64,000 nucleotides of DNA from NCBI RefSeq assembly GCF_009653635.1, contig NZ_PPFD01000002.1, forward strand, positions 558,001 through 622,000. Reading direction: 5' to 3'. The first letter of the stretch is position 1. Each line of letters opens with the position of its first letter. The position numbers were made by a program, and so were the translations under genes. Below the pieces are notes generated by a model. The model was not told the DNA's origin. It ran no database searches and saw only the letters and a program-made list of their open reading frames with translations. The DNA is from Endozoicomonas sp. OPT23 (GTDB taxonomy: Bacteria > Pseudomonadota > Gammaproteobacteria > Pseudomonadales > Endozoicomonadaceae). Below, one piece after another: positions 28,314-34,951 of this stretch.

Positions 28314-28653
28314 GACTCTCTCCGGATTCGGCTTTAAAAGCGGCAATACCATGAACGATCGGGGACAGAAAATTTTAGTCCAGAGTTCGTTTTAAAGGTA
28401 TTGGGGAAATAAAGGCTAAATGTATGGGCTGGCGTGTTGAATCTCAAGGCGTTCTGAATATTTAGATAGAAAAAAATGCATTGGTACAGGAAAAACAATA
28501 AAGAGACACCTTTGGTTGCGGAGGAGTCGCTGAGTTTTTGGATATATGAGCTGTCTGGCTTGAGGAGCTAAACCTGATTCATATTCACTTTCTGGAACTA
28601 TCGTCTTTCTTATCTATACTCCAGCGGCAATCCGAATCAACATGGTGAACGCA
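28314..28653. other. Divergent spacer between gatC and the mucin-like gene
   Basis: No gene, tRNA or clear repeat was seen. The region must hold the gatCAB promoter and that of the mucin-like gene, but no convincing -35/-10 pair stands out by eye. Confidence 0.4.
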
Positions 28654-30906
28654 ATGTTTCACGATCGGGTCATCTCTGGTATTGGAAAGTTTTTGGCACT
28701 GCTGGCTGCTTTCCTGATGGTTATTCAGCCTGCCTACTCCTTCCCATTAGTAACGACACCGCCTGCATCTACTGCTTCAGCCACAATGTTTCCGGAAGAT
28801 CCGGTTTGTCGTTTATGCAATAGCATCATAGAAGCTCCAGCAGGTACAACGCTTTCTGAGTTGAGAGGAGACTGTCTGGAGTTTTTTAAGAGCAACCCAA
28901 ACGCAATTTCTTATTTGAATCGTGTCTATGTTGTACCACCTCAGGATAGGACGGCTCTTGATAATATCGGTCCGATTCTTTCAACTGGTACAGTGCCCCG
29001 AGAGGGGATTAATGAGGTGCTGGTAACAGAAGGAACTCTTGTTATCTTTCCTGCTGCTGTATCAAAAATTGGTATTAGGGATGACATTAATTTAAGGCAT
29101 TCAGATATAGCATTTTATAAAAACACGACGATGGGCGTTTCTGAACTGACCATTAACCCAACATCTTCAATTGAGCATACTCCTGCTCCGAAAACGCTGA
29201 TAAGCATAAATGGCAGTATCAGTAATATTCACTTTGAGGGGATTACGTTTTCAAATAAGGATGAAAGTGAAGAAGTAATTGCAAGCCATATCACGTCCTT
29301 GATAAGCAGTAGTTCATCATCTCATTCTGTGCATAACCTGACCGTTAAGAGGAGCCACTTTGCAAGGAATCCTGCTCTTGTCACAACGAATAGTTCTGTC
29401 AGTGATGTAAATGTTTCAGGGAAAGTTTACTTTAGCCATACTGAATTTGACTGCTCAGGCAGTCCATCAAACACACGTTGTATTTATCTTAATTGTAATC
29501 GTGACAATGCTGTATGTGATGCCAGTTATCTGGATGCGGATAGTGTCACTATGACCCTGAATTCACAGGACCCTAATAGCAGGGACTTGTTTGGCTTTAG
29601 CTTGAATAATCTGCACCATTTTAATATTTTTCGGTCTAACTTTGCTAATAATGAGCTCTATCCTTCAGGTGTGTATTCATCCCGTTTCATAAGCGGCTCC
29701 TTGAGAGGAGATAGGGCGCTTCAGTGTGTATCCAATACTACTGTGAGCCAGTTACCAGGAAGTGATAACGCCAATATTGCACCTTACACCCAGAGACTCT
29801 CTGGCAGCTGTTATGTTGAGCCTCCGACACTAAGCAGTAGTTCTGAGCTCTGTGTGCAGGTTGCAACAACAGAGTCGCCTACTACTGAGCTATCTACTAC
29901 TGAGTCACCTACCACTGAGCTATCTACTACTGATCAGGTAACTACTGAGTCACCTACTACCGAGCAGGTAACTACAGAATCGCCCACTACTGAAGCAACA
30001 ACAGTTAAACCGGAAATCACCGATTCCACAACAGCAGTGGCTGTAACCACCGGAGTAGAAACTACAACGGCCACGGTAACCACTGCAGCAACTGCAGATG
30101 CAAAAGTCACAACGATAACTCCGTCTCCAACAACGGGCACCTTGTTATCCTCAAAATTGGCATCTGAGTCTAGTTCAAGTCTTTCTTCTGAACCGCCTGT
30201 AGGCATGATGTCTCTGGATATGACCAGCCAGGTGATGCCTTCTGAAACTTTGCTACTGCCAGATAGTAGTTCGTCTATGCCTCTTACAGTCGGCGACAGT
30301 GCAACAGAAAGCAGCAGTATAGTGGTGAGTTCAAGTGAAGGCGTCGAGCCGACTTTGAGTGCTACTCAAACAGTTTCAGCCGGTATTTCTACAATAGAAC
30401 CATCTAGTACAATTTCTTTTGAAGGAACAACTTATTCCAGCTCTGTTTCTTCCGTCCCGGTTGCTTCTGAAACACCAAAGGCAGTTCCGACATCTTCGAC
30501 AGTATTGGCTTTGATTAATACAAGCCCTGTGATGTCAACACCTGCGGCAGCGGTTTCGGTTGCACCAACGCCTCCAAAAAGCGCATCCGGTTCTGTGACG
30601 GCTCTGGCAACAACAAAAACTACTGCATTGAGTACTACGCCTGTTTCTCCAGTCATCACGCCATCGCCTTCAGTTGTAGTCGGAACAGGAAATACCGGCC
30701 CCGGACTTGTTGGAGCAGACGATTCAGGCATTGGGCAGGGAGGAGACATCGCTATTGGTGTTGGGGTTGCAGTAGTGGCAATCGTTGTCCTAACTTTGAT
30801 TGCTATTCCAGTGTTTTACGCTTGCAATACATGGAGTTGTTCTGGGCGGCAGCGGACTTATAGTACAGCAGGTACTCCAGCCATTCAGATGCTTGAAAAG
30901 CATTAA
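28654..30906 (+). CDS. Mucin-like single-pass membrane protein
   Basis: A 750-residue protein of unknown function. A signal peptide (FLALLAAFLMVIQPAYSF) leads to a Cys-containing region of about 390 residues. Short strand repeats there (SISNIHFEGITFSN; HNLTVKRSHFARNP) suggest a parallel beta-helix. From about residue 405 it becomes Thr/Ser/Pro-rich for some 280 residues, beginning with four TTESPTTE units. Near the C-terminus lies one membrane helix (GVGVAVVAIVVLTLIAIPVF), then a 30-residue tail with two Cys and basic residues (CNTWSCSGRQRTY). This is the layout of a eukaryotic membrane mucin and is unusual in bacteria. GGTGA 5 bases upstream supports this start; ATG 28642 is an alternative. 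Confidence 0.75.
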   Translation: MFHDRVISGIGKFLALLAAFLMVIQPAYSFPLVTTPPASTASATMFPEDPVCRLCNSIIEAPAGTTLSELRGDCLEFFKSNPNAISYLNRVYVVPPQDRTALDNIGPILSTGTVPREGINEVLVTEGTLVIFPAAVSKIGIRDDINLRHSDIAFYKNTTMGVSELTINPTSSIEHTPAPKTLISINGSISNIHFEGITFSNKDESEEVIASHITSLISSSSSSHSVHNLTVKRSHFARNPALVTTNSSVSDVNVSGKVYFSHTEFDCSGSPSNTRCIYLNCNRDNAVCDASYLDADSVTMTLNSQDPNSRDLFGFSLNNLHHFNIFRSNFANNELYPSGVYSSRFISGSLRGDRALQCVSNTTVSQLPGSDNANIAPYTQRLSGSCYVEPPTLSSSSELCVQVATTESPTTELSTTESPTTELSTTDQVTTESPTTEQVTTESPTTEATTVKPEITDSTTAVAVTTGVETTTATVTTAATADAKVTTITPSPTTGTLLSSKLASESSSSLSSEPPVGMMSLDMTSQVMPSETLLLPDSSSSMPLTVGDSATESSSIVVSSSEGVEPTLSATQTVSAGISTIEPSSTISFEGTTYSSSVSSVPVASETPKAVPTSSTVLALINTSPVMSTPAAAVSVAPTPPKSASGSVTALATTKTTALSTTPVSPVITPSPSVVVGTGNTGPGLVGADDSGIGQGGDIAIGVGVAVVAIVVLTLIAIPVFYACNTWSCSGRQRTYSTAGTPAIQMLEKH
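29863..29999 (+). repeat. TTESPTTE-coding tandem repeats
   Basis: Inside the mucin-like gene, four imperfect units encoding TTESPTTE (with ELS, QV or AT spacers) follow one another. They probably arose by slippage and mark the start of the Ser/Thr-rich region. Confidence 0.75.
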
Positions 30907-32227
<1,321 letters not shown>

Positions 32228-32247
32228 TCTTTCAGTTCAGACTGTTC

Positions 32248-32275
32248 AAAGCCGCCGATAAAGGGCGGCTTTGTT
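32248..32275 (+). terminator. Terminator between mreB and mreC
   Basis: AAAGCCGCC, a 7-base loop and GGCGGCTTT form a perfect 9-bp stem followed by TTGTTG. It would uncouple mreB from mreCD, at least in part. Confidence 0.8.
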
Positions 32276-32363: not shown

Positions 32364-32369
32364 TATAAT
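32364..32369 (+). promoter_or_regulatory. Candidate -10 box for mreC
   Basis: A perfect TATAAT lies 24 bases before the proposed mreC start, in AT-rich sequence downstream of the mreB terminator. A good -35 hexamer is not evident. Transcription from it would begin around 32376, giving a leader of fewer than 20 bases. Confidence 0.4.
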
Positions 32370-32392
32370 CGAAAAAATGTCCGGAGCCAGCC

Positions 32393-33298
32393 ATTAAATC
32401 CATATTCAGCCGCCAGCAGTCACTTGCTACGCGTTTTGTTTTACTGTTCATCCTGTGTATAGCACTGCTGTTTATTGATCATCGGTTTAATTACCTGAAC
32501 GTTGCCCGTTCCTGGCTGTCGGTTATGGCTGTGCCGGTTCAATGGGTGGCAGATCTGCCATCAAGGCTGTTCAGCTCGGCGGATGAGCTGGTGACTTCTC
32601 GCAGTGATTTAATGGAAGAGAACGCCAGACTGAAAGCCCGAAATCTGATTCTGGAACAAAAAGTACAAAAGCTTGCCTCCCTGACGGCTCAGAACTTTCG
32701 ATTGAAAGAGCTGCTGAACTCAACCGAGCTGGTGGATGAACAGGTGCTGGTGGCAGAAATAGTCGGCATTGACCCGGACCCTTTTTCTCATATTGTCATT
32801 ATCAATAAAGGTTCTACTGAAGGTGTGTTCAGAGGGCAGGCGTTGGTGGATGCCCATGGTGTTATGGGGCAGGTGGTTGAAGTAACGCCATTGCGAAGCA
32901 GGGTTATGCTGGTAACGGATGTGGTCAGTCGGGTGCCTGTTCAGGTGAACCGCAGTGGTTATCGGGCTATAGCGGCGGGCACGGGTAAGAAAGACTCCAT
33001 GGATCTGCTGCATATTCCCGATACCGCAGATATTCAGGAGGGCGACCTTCTGACCAGTTCCGGTCTGGGCAAGATCTTTCCTGTTGGCTATCCGTTAGGC
33101 AAAGTCAGAAAAATAGAAAGAGATCCCGGCGAGCCATTTGCCCGGGTTGAGGTTGAATTGTCAGCCAAGGTTAATACCACTCGCTTTGTATTGCTGGTGT
33201 TCAGAGAAAATCAGGACAGAGGTACGGGTACGCCAGAGACGGAAAAACGTAACTCGGAAAATGCTAAGACAGACGACAAAGGGGTCGGCAATCAATGA
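32393..33298 (+). CDS. mreC: Rod-shape-determining protein MreC, initiating at ATT
   Basis: MreC links MreB to periplasmic wall enzymes. The first ATG in frame (32525) gives 257 residues without the membrane helix. Reading upstream in frame, the sequence IKSIFSRQQSLATRFVLLF continues with ILCIALLFIDHRF, which matches the N-terminus of E. coli MreC (MKPIFSRGPSL...) position for position. The codon at the family's Met is ATT. GGAG lies 6 bases before it, and no ATG, GTG or TTG exists in frame before a stop further upstream. The full product has 301 residues: TM helix about 15-32, coiled coil 60-105, then two beta domains. The C-terminal tail is charged. mreD overlaps by 4 bases. Confidence 0.85.
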   Translation: MKSIFSRQQSLATRFVLLFILCIALLFIDHRFNYLNVARSWLSVMAVPVQWVADLPSRLFSSADELVTSRSDLMEENARLKARNLILEQKVQKLASLTAQNFRLKELLNSTELVDEQVLVAEIVGIDPDPFSHIVIINKGSTEGVFRGQALVDAHGVMGQVVEVTPLRSRVMLVTDVVSRVPVQVNRSGYRAIAAGTGKKDSMDLLHIPDTADIQEGDLLTSSGLGKIFPVGYPLGKVRKIERDPGEPFARVEVELSAKVNTTRFVLLVFRENQDRGTGTPETEKRNSENAKTDDKGVGNQ

Positions 33299-33783
33299 GT
33301 GCCCAGAGAACCAATGGTCATTGGATTGTCTGGGCAAGTATTGCTGTCGCTCTTCTGCTTAGCATCCTGCCACTGCCAGACTGGGTTTCTATCTCACGAC
33401 CGGCCTGGGTTGCCATGGTGGTTATGTACTGGATTATGGCGTTACCGGAACGCTTTGGTCTGTTCTTCGCTTTTGTATCCGGGTTGATGATGGACGTCTT
33501 TATGGGGACGGGCTTTGGTCATAACTCATTAGGGCTTTTGGTTGTTGCAGCAGTGGTGTTGGCTCTTCATAGACGGTTGAGAATGTTCCCATGGTGGCAG
33601 CAGGCATTTATGGCTTTTGTCATTATTGGCTTATACCAGCTGGTTAATCTCTGGATTAAAAGCGCTCTGGGTAGAACGCCGCCATCACTCTGGTATTTAA
33701 TGCCGGCTTTGACCAGTGCCGCCTTCTGGCCATGGTTGTCACTCATGCTTCGATATCTCAGAAGGTATTACCGGGTTCGATGA
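33295..33783 (+). CDS. mreD: Rod-shape-determining protein MreD
   Basis: A 162-residue inner-membrane protein with about five helices. It is recognised from the MreD-type stretch LPERFGLFFAFVSGLMMDVFMGTGFGHNSLG and the C-terminal WPWLSLMLRYLRRYY. The ATG overlaps the mreC stop (ATGA). Its last 26 bases overlap the end of the convergent EEP hydrolase gene. Confidence 0.93.
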   Translation: MSAQRTNGHWIVWASIAVALLLSILPLPDWVSISRPAWVAMVVMYWIMALPERFGLFFAFVSGLMMDVFMGTGFGHNSLGLLVVAAVVLALHRRLRMFPWWQQAFMAFVIIGLYQLVNLWIKSALGRTPPSLWYLMPALTSAAFWPWLSLMLRYLRRYYRVR

Positions 33784-34951
33784 TTTCTTGCTCGTCAGTC
33801 TCTTCGGGCTGAACGGGTTGAGATTCTTCCGGTTCGATGGACGGAGTGGTTTCTTCCTGTCCCTGCTCGCTGATGTCCTCTACTGGGTCTGAGGTCTGTT
33901 CCGTTTCGGGAGTCCGCTCGGGTTCCAGTATTGTTTCCGGGTCAACTGTGGGTTCTGTTGCCTCTGGCGCAGGAGATTCTGGTTCAGCAACGGGTTCAAT
34001 AGTTGCTTCAGGTTTCTCTGGTTCAATAACGGGTTCTGATATTTCAGGCTCAACGGTCGGTTCAGGATCCGGAGTGATTTCGAGCCAGTCGAACCAGACG
34101 ATGACCGGTCGGTGATCTGAAAGTGGCTTATTATCTTTATCTCGAAAATCAGGTGAATCATATCTGACAGGGTCAAGTTTGATGCCGTTTGAATTACGAT
34201 AAAATATTCTATCTATCTTCCATTTGTTTTGTTTACCAAGACCTAAAGTTTGAAAAGAATCGGTCAGGCGAGCATCCTGCAAAAAGCTGTTATAGAGGTC
34301 AGACATATTGCCTTGACTGTGATTAAAATCGCCTACAACAATGACCGGGTTAAGCAGTGAAAACGTCTTCATATATTCAAACATCATGAACGTCTGTTTA
34401 ATACGGAGGTCTTTAGCCTCGGTACTACTGCCCGACTCCATATGCATGTTGTAAATATCTATCTCAAATTCTATGCCGCCTGTGCTGCGTATTTTGTGTC
34501 GGGCGACTGAGAAGCCTTTGGTCGCAAGGCAGTCTCCACCACCGCCTTTATCATCAGAGCCAAAGCGGTAACAGTCTCCCCAGGCCTTTCGGGTAAAGTC
34601 CTTAATGGGAAAACGTGAAAAACGGTTTAAACCATCATTTACCAGTTTTCCATTCCAGGTGTCATGCCACGAAAGTTCCTTTGGTGTGCTTTTGTAGGGG
34701 AACTTGGCGGTTTTGGTAATCTCGTCGTGATACCAGAAATCTTCCTGCAGCATCACCAGGTCGTAGTCATTCAGTTTTTGTCCAAGAGCAGGAAAACGAT
34801 AAGCATCCATATCGTTGATCCAGTAAGGCAGGCCAGCCACGTTATAGGTCATCACGGAAAAATTACCGCGCAGGGTTTCCTGGCTATAACTGTTTGCAAC
34901 TGACAAAGAGGCCAGAAGCAGGAAGGCGTTAATAAATAGTTTCATGGACAA
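33758..34951 (-). CDS. Secreted endonuclease/exonuclease/phosphatase-family hydrolase with Pro/Glu-rich tail (sphingomyelinase-like)
   Basis: A 397-residue exported enzyme. It has a signal peptide (LFINAFLLLASLSVANSYS), then an EEP fold at about 28-290. Catalytic stretches are present: VMTYNVAGLP (Asn), DLVMLQEDFWY (metal-binding Glu), IYNMHMES, VIVVGDFNHSQ (Asp/Asn) and LSDHRPVIVWFDW (Asp-His). The size and overall pattern resemble bacterial sphingomyelinase C or secreted phosphodiesterases more than nucleases, but this is a judgement from memory. About 105 residues of Pro/Glu/Thr repeats (PEPTVEPEISEPVIEPEKPE...) form a low-complexity C-terminal tail. It is inserted against the grain between mreD and maf, which are adjacent in E. 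coli. Confidence 0.8.
   Translation of the reverse strand: MSMKLFINAFLLLASLSVANSYSQETLRGNFSVMTYNVAGLPYWINDMDAYRFPALGQKLNDYDLVMLQEDFWYHDEITKTAKFPYKSTPKELSWHDTWNGKLVNDGLNRFSRFPIKDFTRKAWGDCYRFGSDDKGGGGDCLATKGFSVARHKIRSTGGIEFEIDIYNMHMESGSSTEAKDLRIKQTFMMFEYMKTFSLLNPVIVVGDFNHSQGNMSDLYNSFLQDARLTDSFQTLGLGKQNKWKIDRIFYRNSNGIKLDPVRYDSPDFRDKDNKPLSDHRPVIVWFDWLEITPDPEPTVEPEISEPVIEPEKPEATIEPVAEPESPAPEATEPTVDPETILEPERTPETEQTSDPVEDISEQGQEETTPSIEPEESQPVQPEETDEQEIIEPGNTF

Follow-up and report, generated by a model that had tools for sequence, protein, structure and literature searches.

AUU as the start codon of mreC in Endozoicomonas sp. OPT23 and the prevalence of AUH starts among the gammaproteobacterial mreC loci examined

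At the level of sequence, the assignment of an AUU start to the mreC gene of Endozoicomonas sp. OPT23 is confirmed, and AUH codons (AUU, AUC or AUA) appear as the prevailing mreC start among the gammaproteobacterial loci examined, a trait of many lineages and not of one odd gene. We consider it quite probable, taking the parts jointly, that mreC starts at the AUU at position 32393, that an AUH codon has been kept there by selection and that discrimination by IF3 keeps MreC scarce. This reading is carried by the sequence of the site, the absence of any other start, the conservation of the codon and a Shine-Dalgarno peak in front of it. The window, i.e. the whole stretch of DNA analysed, is 64,000 nucleotides long. 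The gene order mreB-mreC-mreD found in it is the usual one, and the features that concern the start are the following:

31190..32227, plus strand: mreB, with an ATG start, used as a control gene (NF010539, 540.8 bits; TIGR00904, 521.1 bits)
32366..32368, plus strand: TAA, the in-frame stop closing the mreC frame 5' of the ATT
32383..32386, plus strand: Shine-Dalgarno sequence GGAG at a spacing of 6, in line with a G/A-rich peak at −11 to −7 across 160 AUH loci
32393..32395, plus strand: mreC initiation codon ATT, placed by HMM at the family Met position, with no in-frame canonical start and with AUH in 160 of 217 alignable loci
32393..33298, plus strand: mreC, 301 residues from the AUU (read as Met), then a stop (TIGR00219 from profile position 3, 186.2 bits at a cut-off of 92.75; PF04085, 141.2 bits at a cut-off of 28)
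32426..32479, plus strand: N-terminal membrane helix, approximately residues 12-29 (hydropathy maximum 2.58 in the 19-residue window starting at residue 10)
32525..32527, plus strand: first in-frame ATG, the choice of a conventional call, rejected here; 44 codons of the conserved protein, helix included, precede it
33295..33783, plus strand: mreD, with an ATG start and a 4-base overlap with the end of mreC (TIGR03426, 107.2 bits)

The mreC frame opens after the TAA at 32366-32368, and the first ATG, GTG or TTG in it is the ATG at 32525. The eight codons between the stop and the ATT (TCG AAA AAA TGT CCG GAG CCA GCC) include no start codon, and the only in-frame NTG triplets before that ATG are six CTGs, all located from 32444 on, in or past the membrane helix. 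As with infC-type starts, AUU is thus the only start available to the gene and a Shine-Dalgarno sequence stands before it at normal spacing. An earlier note on this DNA had proposed precisely this start, with GGAG six bases ahead of it, and both proposals agree with the sequence. The duplex energy of this Shine-Dalgarno sequence (−5.8) is weaker than the median of the AUH loci (−7.7). The protein read from the ATT at 32393 (IKSIFSRQQSLATRF) matches the beginning of E. coli MreC (MKPIFSRGPSLQIRL), the ATT falling where the Met stands; the similarity to E. coli upstream of the first ATG, which the note had also pointed out, is evident from IKSIFSR in the window and MKPIFSR in E. coli. The bitopic layout of MreC, a short cytoplasmic N-terminus and one helix, was judged solely from hydropathy and was obtained only when the protein was read from the ATT.

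A conventional caller yields an ORF of 257 residues starting at 32525, and a soluble MreC produced from this ATG, or a sequencing or assembly error at the ATT, would be an alternative. We find it hardly credible. Such a call loses 44 residues that include the conserved N-terminal part and, as the earlier note had warned, the membrane anchor; the peak hydropathy over 19 residues drops from 2.58 to 1.34. Moreover, the same codon class stands at this place in 160 of the 217 distinct loci that could be aligned, which puts the ATT of the window far above chance and argues against an error.

These counts come from a collection of mreC loci taken from all ten of ten genomes of the genus, from named genomes (the best 80 of 165), from the order (the best 30 of 191 with a match, 194 having been searched) and from the class, where 369 genomes were searched, 337 had a match and the best 130 besides the window's own were taken, a choice biased towards sequences close to the consensus of the family. 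We added E. coli K-12 and six further named records. Starts were assigned with an HMM whose seed proteins had been given M at position 1 by us. Removal of 11 duplicates and of one locus cut at its end (L122) from the 254 loci with a match left 242 distinct loci, 217 of which align to the family start and 25 of which have an unalignable N-terminus. At the family start of the 217 alignable loci we found ATT in 81, ATC in 60, ATA in 19, ATG in 23, GTG in one and another codon in 33. Split by source, with the unalignable loci included in the denominators, AUH was present in the window (1/1), in the rest of the genus (9/9), in 47/77 loci from named genomes, 79/125 from the class, 23/23 from the order, 1/6 of the other named records and 0/1 for E. 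coli. The alignment across relatives proposed in the earlier note as a check strongly favoured its start assignment, with AUU or AUC in 10/10 genomes of the genus and one of the three AUH codons in most alignable loci. The Endozoicomonas-group loci among the named genomes (L012-L027 and L071), three of which repeat genomes of the genus, were AUH in 17/17 cases.

Among the 33 loci with another codon, 28 have ATG, GTG or TTG within −15 to +5, and in four an AUH precedes the site by one to three codons. One class genome (L181) carries GTT at the family start behind GGAGGT, with no in-frame ATG, GTG or TTG from a stop six codons upstream to +13; judging by this arrangement, a GUU start of its mreC is possible. 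A canonical codon lies within −15 to +5 in 23 of the 25 unalignable loci, and in the other two (L148 and L191) the extrapolated site is AUH and the frame between the stop and +13 lacks a canonical start. Two records of the collection deserve a comment. The record NZ_JAGHQW010000041.1 (L071) is titled Salinisphaera sp. G21_0, its MreC is 63% identical to that of the window and its mreC start region is Endozoicomonas-like; the record is probably misnamed. In the closest relative, L003 (G006, 91% identity), one TGA lies inside the match to the mreC query, where a shorter protein may end.

That the conserved AUH is a start and not an internal Ile codon is indicated by what precedes it. No ATG, GTG or TTG occurs from the upstream stop to +13 in 108 of the 160 AUH loci; no canonical start is found upstream in 132 of them, and a possible one lies further upstream in the other 28. 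The in-frame stop stands no more than ten sense codons before the AUH in 99 loci, with just a single sense codon between them in 15. Across the 160 loci, nucleotide information is near zero upstream and rises abruptly at the AUH codon. Two upstream stretches depart from this: −11 to −7, with the purine-rich Shine-Dalgarno peak, and −3 to −1, with a further bias (up to 0.70 bits). Around the start (32390-32398 in the window), pyrimidines predominate at −2 (C 97, T 52) and at −1 (C 86, T 49), and AAA or AAG follows as the second codon in 140/160. Since avoidance of G at the third base would also be expected for an internal Ile, the case for a start is made by the stops ahead of the codon and by the Shine-Dalgarno peak.

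The neighbouring genes served as a control for both assembly quality and the method. Matches to mreB were present in 226 loci, with a placed start in 124 (93 distinct), and matches to mreD in 152, with a placed start in 57 (47 distinct); many of the stretches were not long enough. ATG or TTG stands at the family position of mreB in 81/93 distinct loci, and the remaining 12 have ATG or GTG one or two codons upstream; for mreD the codon is canonical in 38/47 and the remaining nine have ATG one codon away. No locus among these 93 mreB and 47 mreD genes, all distinct and with the gene start within reach, needs an AUH start. Outside the Gammaproteobacteria, a canonical mreC start was available before the membrane helix in 20/20 loci from other classes of the same phylum, picked by hand with one locus per family code and inspected by a rough hydropathy scan for the transmembrane segment. 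Within the class, mreC starts with ATG in E. coli, Klebsiella, Proteus and Aeromonas and with GTG in Acinetobacter and Legionella (one record each), and some loci, e.g. L078 and L085, have an extended MreC N-terminus with an upstream ATG. Lineages without AUH therefore exist, and AUH is not essential to the function of mreC.

On the MreC phylogeny, which was built with FastTree only, the labels AUH, canonical and other change 21 times, compared with a mean of 54 in 100 shuffles. On the same tree the third base changes among T, C and A at least 45 times, whereas AUH and AUG are exchanged 8 times. If the third base were unconstrained, G would be expected there much more frequently, so that AUG seems to be selected against at the mreC start. 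These numbers also bear on the idea that few MreC copies are needed, that any near-AUG start therefore suffices and that AUH was fixed once and then inherited. Such drift would suit the scarcity of MreC in E. coli (about 180 copies; PMC7793260), but it does not suit a third base that moves freely among T, C and A and so rarely becomes G, and we consider it improbable.

The median duplex energy of the Shine-Dalgarno sequence was −7.7 in AUH loci and −3.85 in canonical loci (Mann-Whitney p 4e-5). Compensation of a weak codon by a strong Shine-Dalgarno sequence was nevertheless rejected as a general rule, because the relation is not significant when ancestry is allowed for, with only four supported independent pairs. 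The mreC of E. coli K-12, the species taken as model in the earlier note, is the same gene in the same place with a similar N-terminus, but it differs from that of the window in its ATG start and in having little Shine-Dalgarno complementarity (duplex energy −3.0). Such a poor Shine-Dalgarno sequence would be another route to an equally low rate.

We suggest the following course of events. The Shine-Dalgarno sequence would recruit the ribosome to the mreC AUU, and initiator fMet-tRNA would start translation at 32393, so that the short cytoplasmic N-terminus and the membrane helix would be retained. The third-base mismatch with the initiator anticodon, disfavoured by IF3, would make ribosome binding rarely productive. 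This agrees with a study of IF3 codon preference, according to which pairing at the first two bases has to be Watson-Crick and weak pairs at the third are excluded (PMC10158994). The outcome would be a low and constant synthesis of MreC relative to MreB, which is encoded at the same locus and has a normal start. Overexpression of MreC in E. coli results in shorter and wider cells, an effect partly relieved by MreD (PMC7793260). In our opinion, mreC is probably translated slowly on purpose; we infer from the features described above that the cell initiates at the AUU, that the yield is low, that IF3 acts there and that this throttling serves to limit MreC. The earlier note had raised low synthesis of MreC, or a tie to the IF3 level, as a possibility, which would fit. 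If this is true, an essential cell-wall scaffold gene would place a translational throttle on the elongation machinery.

In the genome of the window, infC (L123) has an apparent ATC start behind AGAGGAG, with no ATG, GTG or TTG in the first 40 codons of the frame. AUH initiation should thus work in this organism. The AUH codon of mreC might be a true start and also a sensor through which mreC output follows IF3 activity and wall elongation is coupled to the translation apparatus. With infC apparently of the AUH type as well, both genes would respond together, and the conserved GTC start of Streptomyces sigR provides a precedent of repression by IF3 (PMC5472188). The ATG found in the mreC records of E. 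coli, Klebsiella, Proteus and Aeromonas, on the other hand, indicates that such coupling is unneeded there, and we regard a sensor as possible but rather unlikely. A broader version, proposed here only tentatively and with more doubt than belief, is an ancient gammaproteobacterial control in which the non-AUG start of mreC sets wall elongation, via IF3, by the state of translation; the Enterobacterales and a few others would have switched to AUG, often with a weak ribosome-binding site.

The throttled start that we favour has several relatives. IF3-discriminated AUH starts are already known (infC and pcnB), and mreC would be a new, widely conserved addition to them. Like mreC, infC has an AUH start, ATT in E. 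coli and ATC in Streptomyces. It is the only widely conserved AUH start that we know of, and mreC would be the second. MreC has, to our knowledge, no role in initiation, and hence no feedback loop is expected; infC, unlike mreC, controls its own discriminator, IF3. The AUH codon of infC mediates IF3 autoregulation (PMC5472188). The sigR gene of Streptomyces resembles mreC in its conserved non-canonical start; it combines this with a strong ribosome-binding site, is repressed by IF3 and keeps a ratio to its partner (PMC5472188). It differs in that its GUC is mismatched at both the first and the third base, in its restriction to one genus and in encoding a sigma factor, not a cell-wall scaffold. 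As for pcnB, which encodes poly(A) polymerase, its AUU start in E. coli is thought to limit translation. The pcnB frame in the window's genome offers an ATG near the N-terminus and was therefore rejected as a second AUU control, whereas AUH at mreC is widespread in the class sample. No report of a non-canonical mreC start was found in the open literature among the matches listed, which covered titles, beginnings of abstracts and term counts and few subscription journals. An mreC term and a start-codon term both occur in PMC13192273 and PMC4394545, but in both papers the two are unrelated.

A different origin of ribosomes at the ATT would be re-initiation after an out-of-frame mini-ORF (ATG at 32377, MSGASH), whose TAA stop codon overlaps the mreC ATT and could hand ribosomes over to it. 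The mini-ORF was rejected, however, since its ATG is missing in the closest relative, L003, where ATT and GGAG are kept; the Shine-Dalgarno energy of this ATG is only −1.3, and such a hand-over is very improbable.

A direct AUH start also has consequences for annotation, since callers that accept only ATG, GTG and TTG lose the membrane anchor of MreC, and the mreC start is easily misplaced in databases. In Pseudomonas aeruginosa CP123788.1, a record with AUC at the family start, the mreC frame reads TAG GAG CGG ATC ATC AAA CCG CTA TTC, and the deposited CDS begins at a GTG 16 codons past the second ATC, inside the helix. For P. aeruginosa MreC, the cytoplasmic part and the transmembrane region have been assigned to the first 14 residues (PMC8137920), and in the shortened call the helix ends after exactly 14 residues (MLAVLSVSLMVVDA). 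The numbering in that paper may derive from such a shortened call. The structures PDB 6zlv and 6zm0 match P. aeruginosa MreC, with identity throughout except for one or two terminal residues, over query residues 95-274 only and do not cover the N-terminus. CP123788.1 itself (L252) is a clinical record of 1131 bases labelled as a plasmid and contains only a piece of mreB-mreC; it is probably a mis-filed chromosomal fragment.

The gap between mreB and mreC contains one further element, defined by a simple criterion of our own:

32247..32273, plus strand: terminator-like hairpin between mreB and mreC, 10 pairs, with a T-rich tail

In the region of the window, four terminator-like sites were found compared with 3.4 expected from shuffles. 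By the same criterion and among the matches listed, a hairpin is present in the mreB-mreC gap of 18/22 Endozoicomonas-group loci, and it could lower mreC further in this group. Where the gap was measurable, it occurred in 47/140 AUH loci versus 5/22 canonical loci. A terminator and a weak start as a common module was rejected, as the hairpin is frequent in the Endozoicomonas group but not general. Mutations in the mreB-mreC gap of Cupriavidus that would improve a large stem-loop have been described (PMC13192273). A search of the window against Rfam at gathering thresholds gave no match.

Two other frames of the window were noticed. The 754-residue frame at 28642-30906 is rich in Ser, Thr and Pro, with TTESPTTE-like repeats and, as judged by eye, a hydrophobic stretch near the C-terminus; it looks like a surface mucin-like protein. 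On the minus strand, a 397-residue frame at 33758-34951 has a TTG start and a Pro/Glu-rich tail and overlaps the end of mreD by 26 bases; its N-terminal part, viewed by eye, is presumably endonuclease/phosphatase-like.
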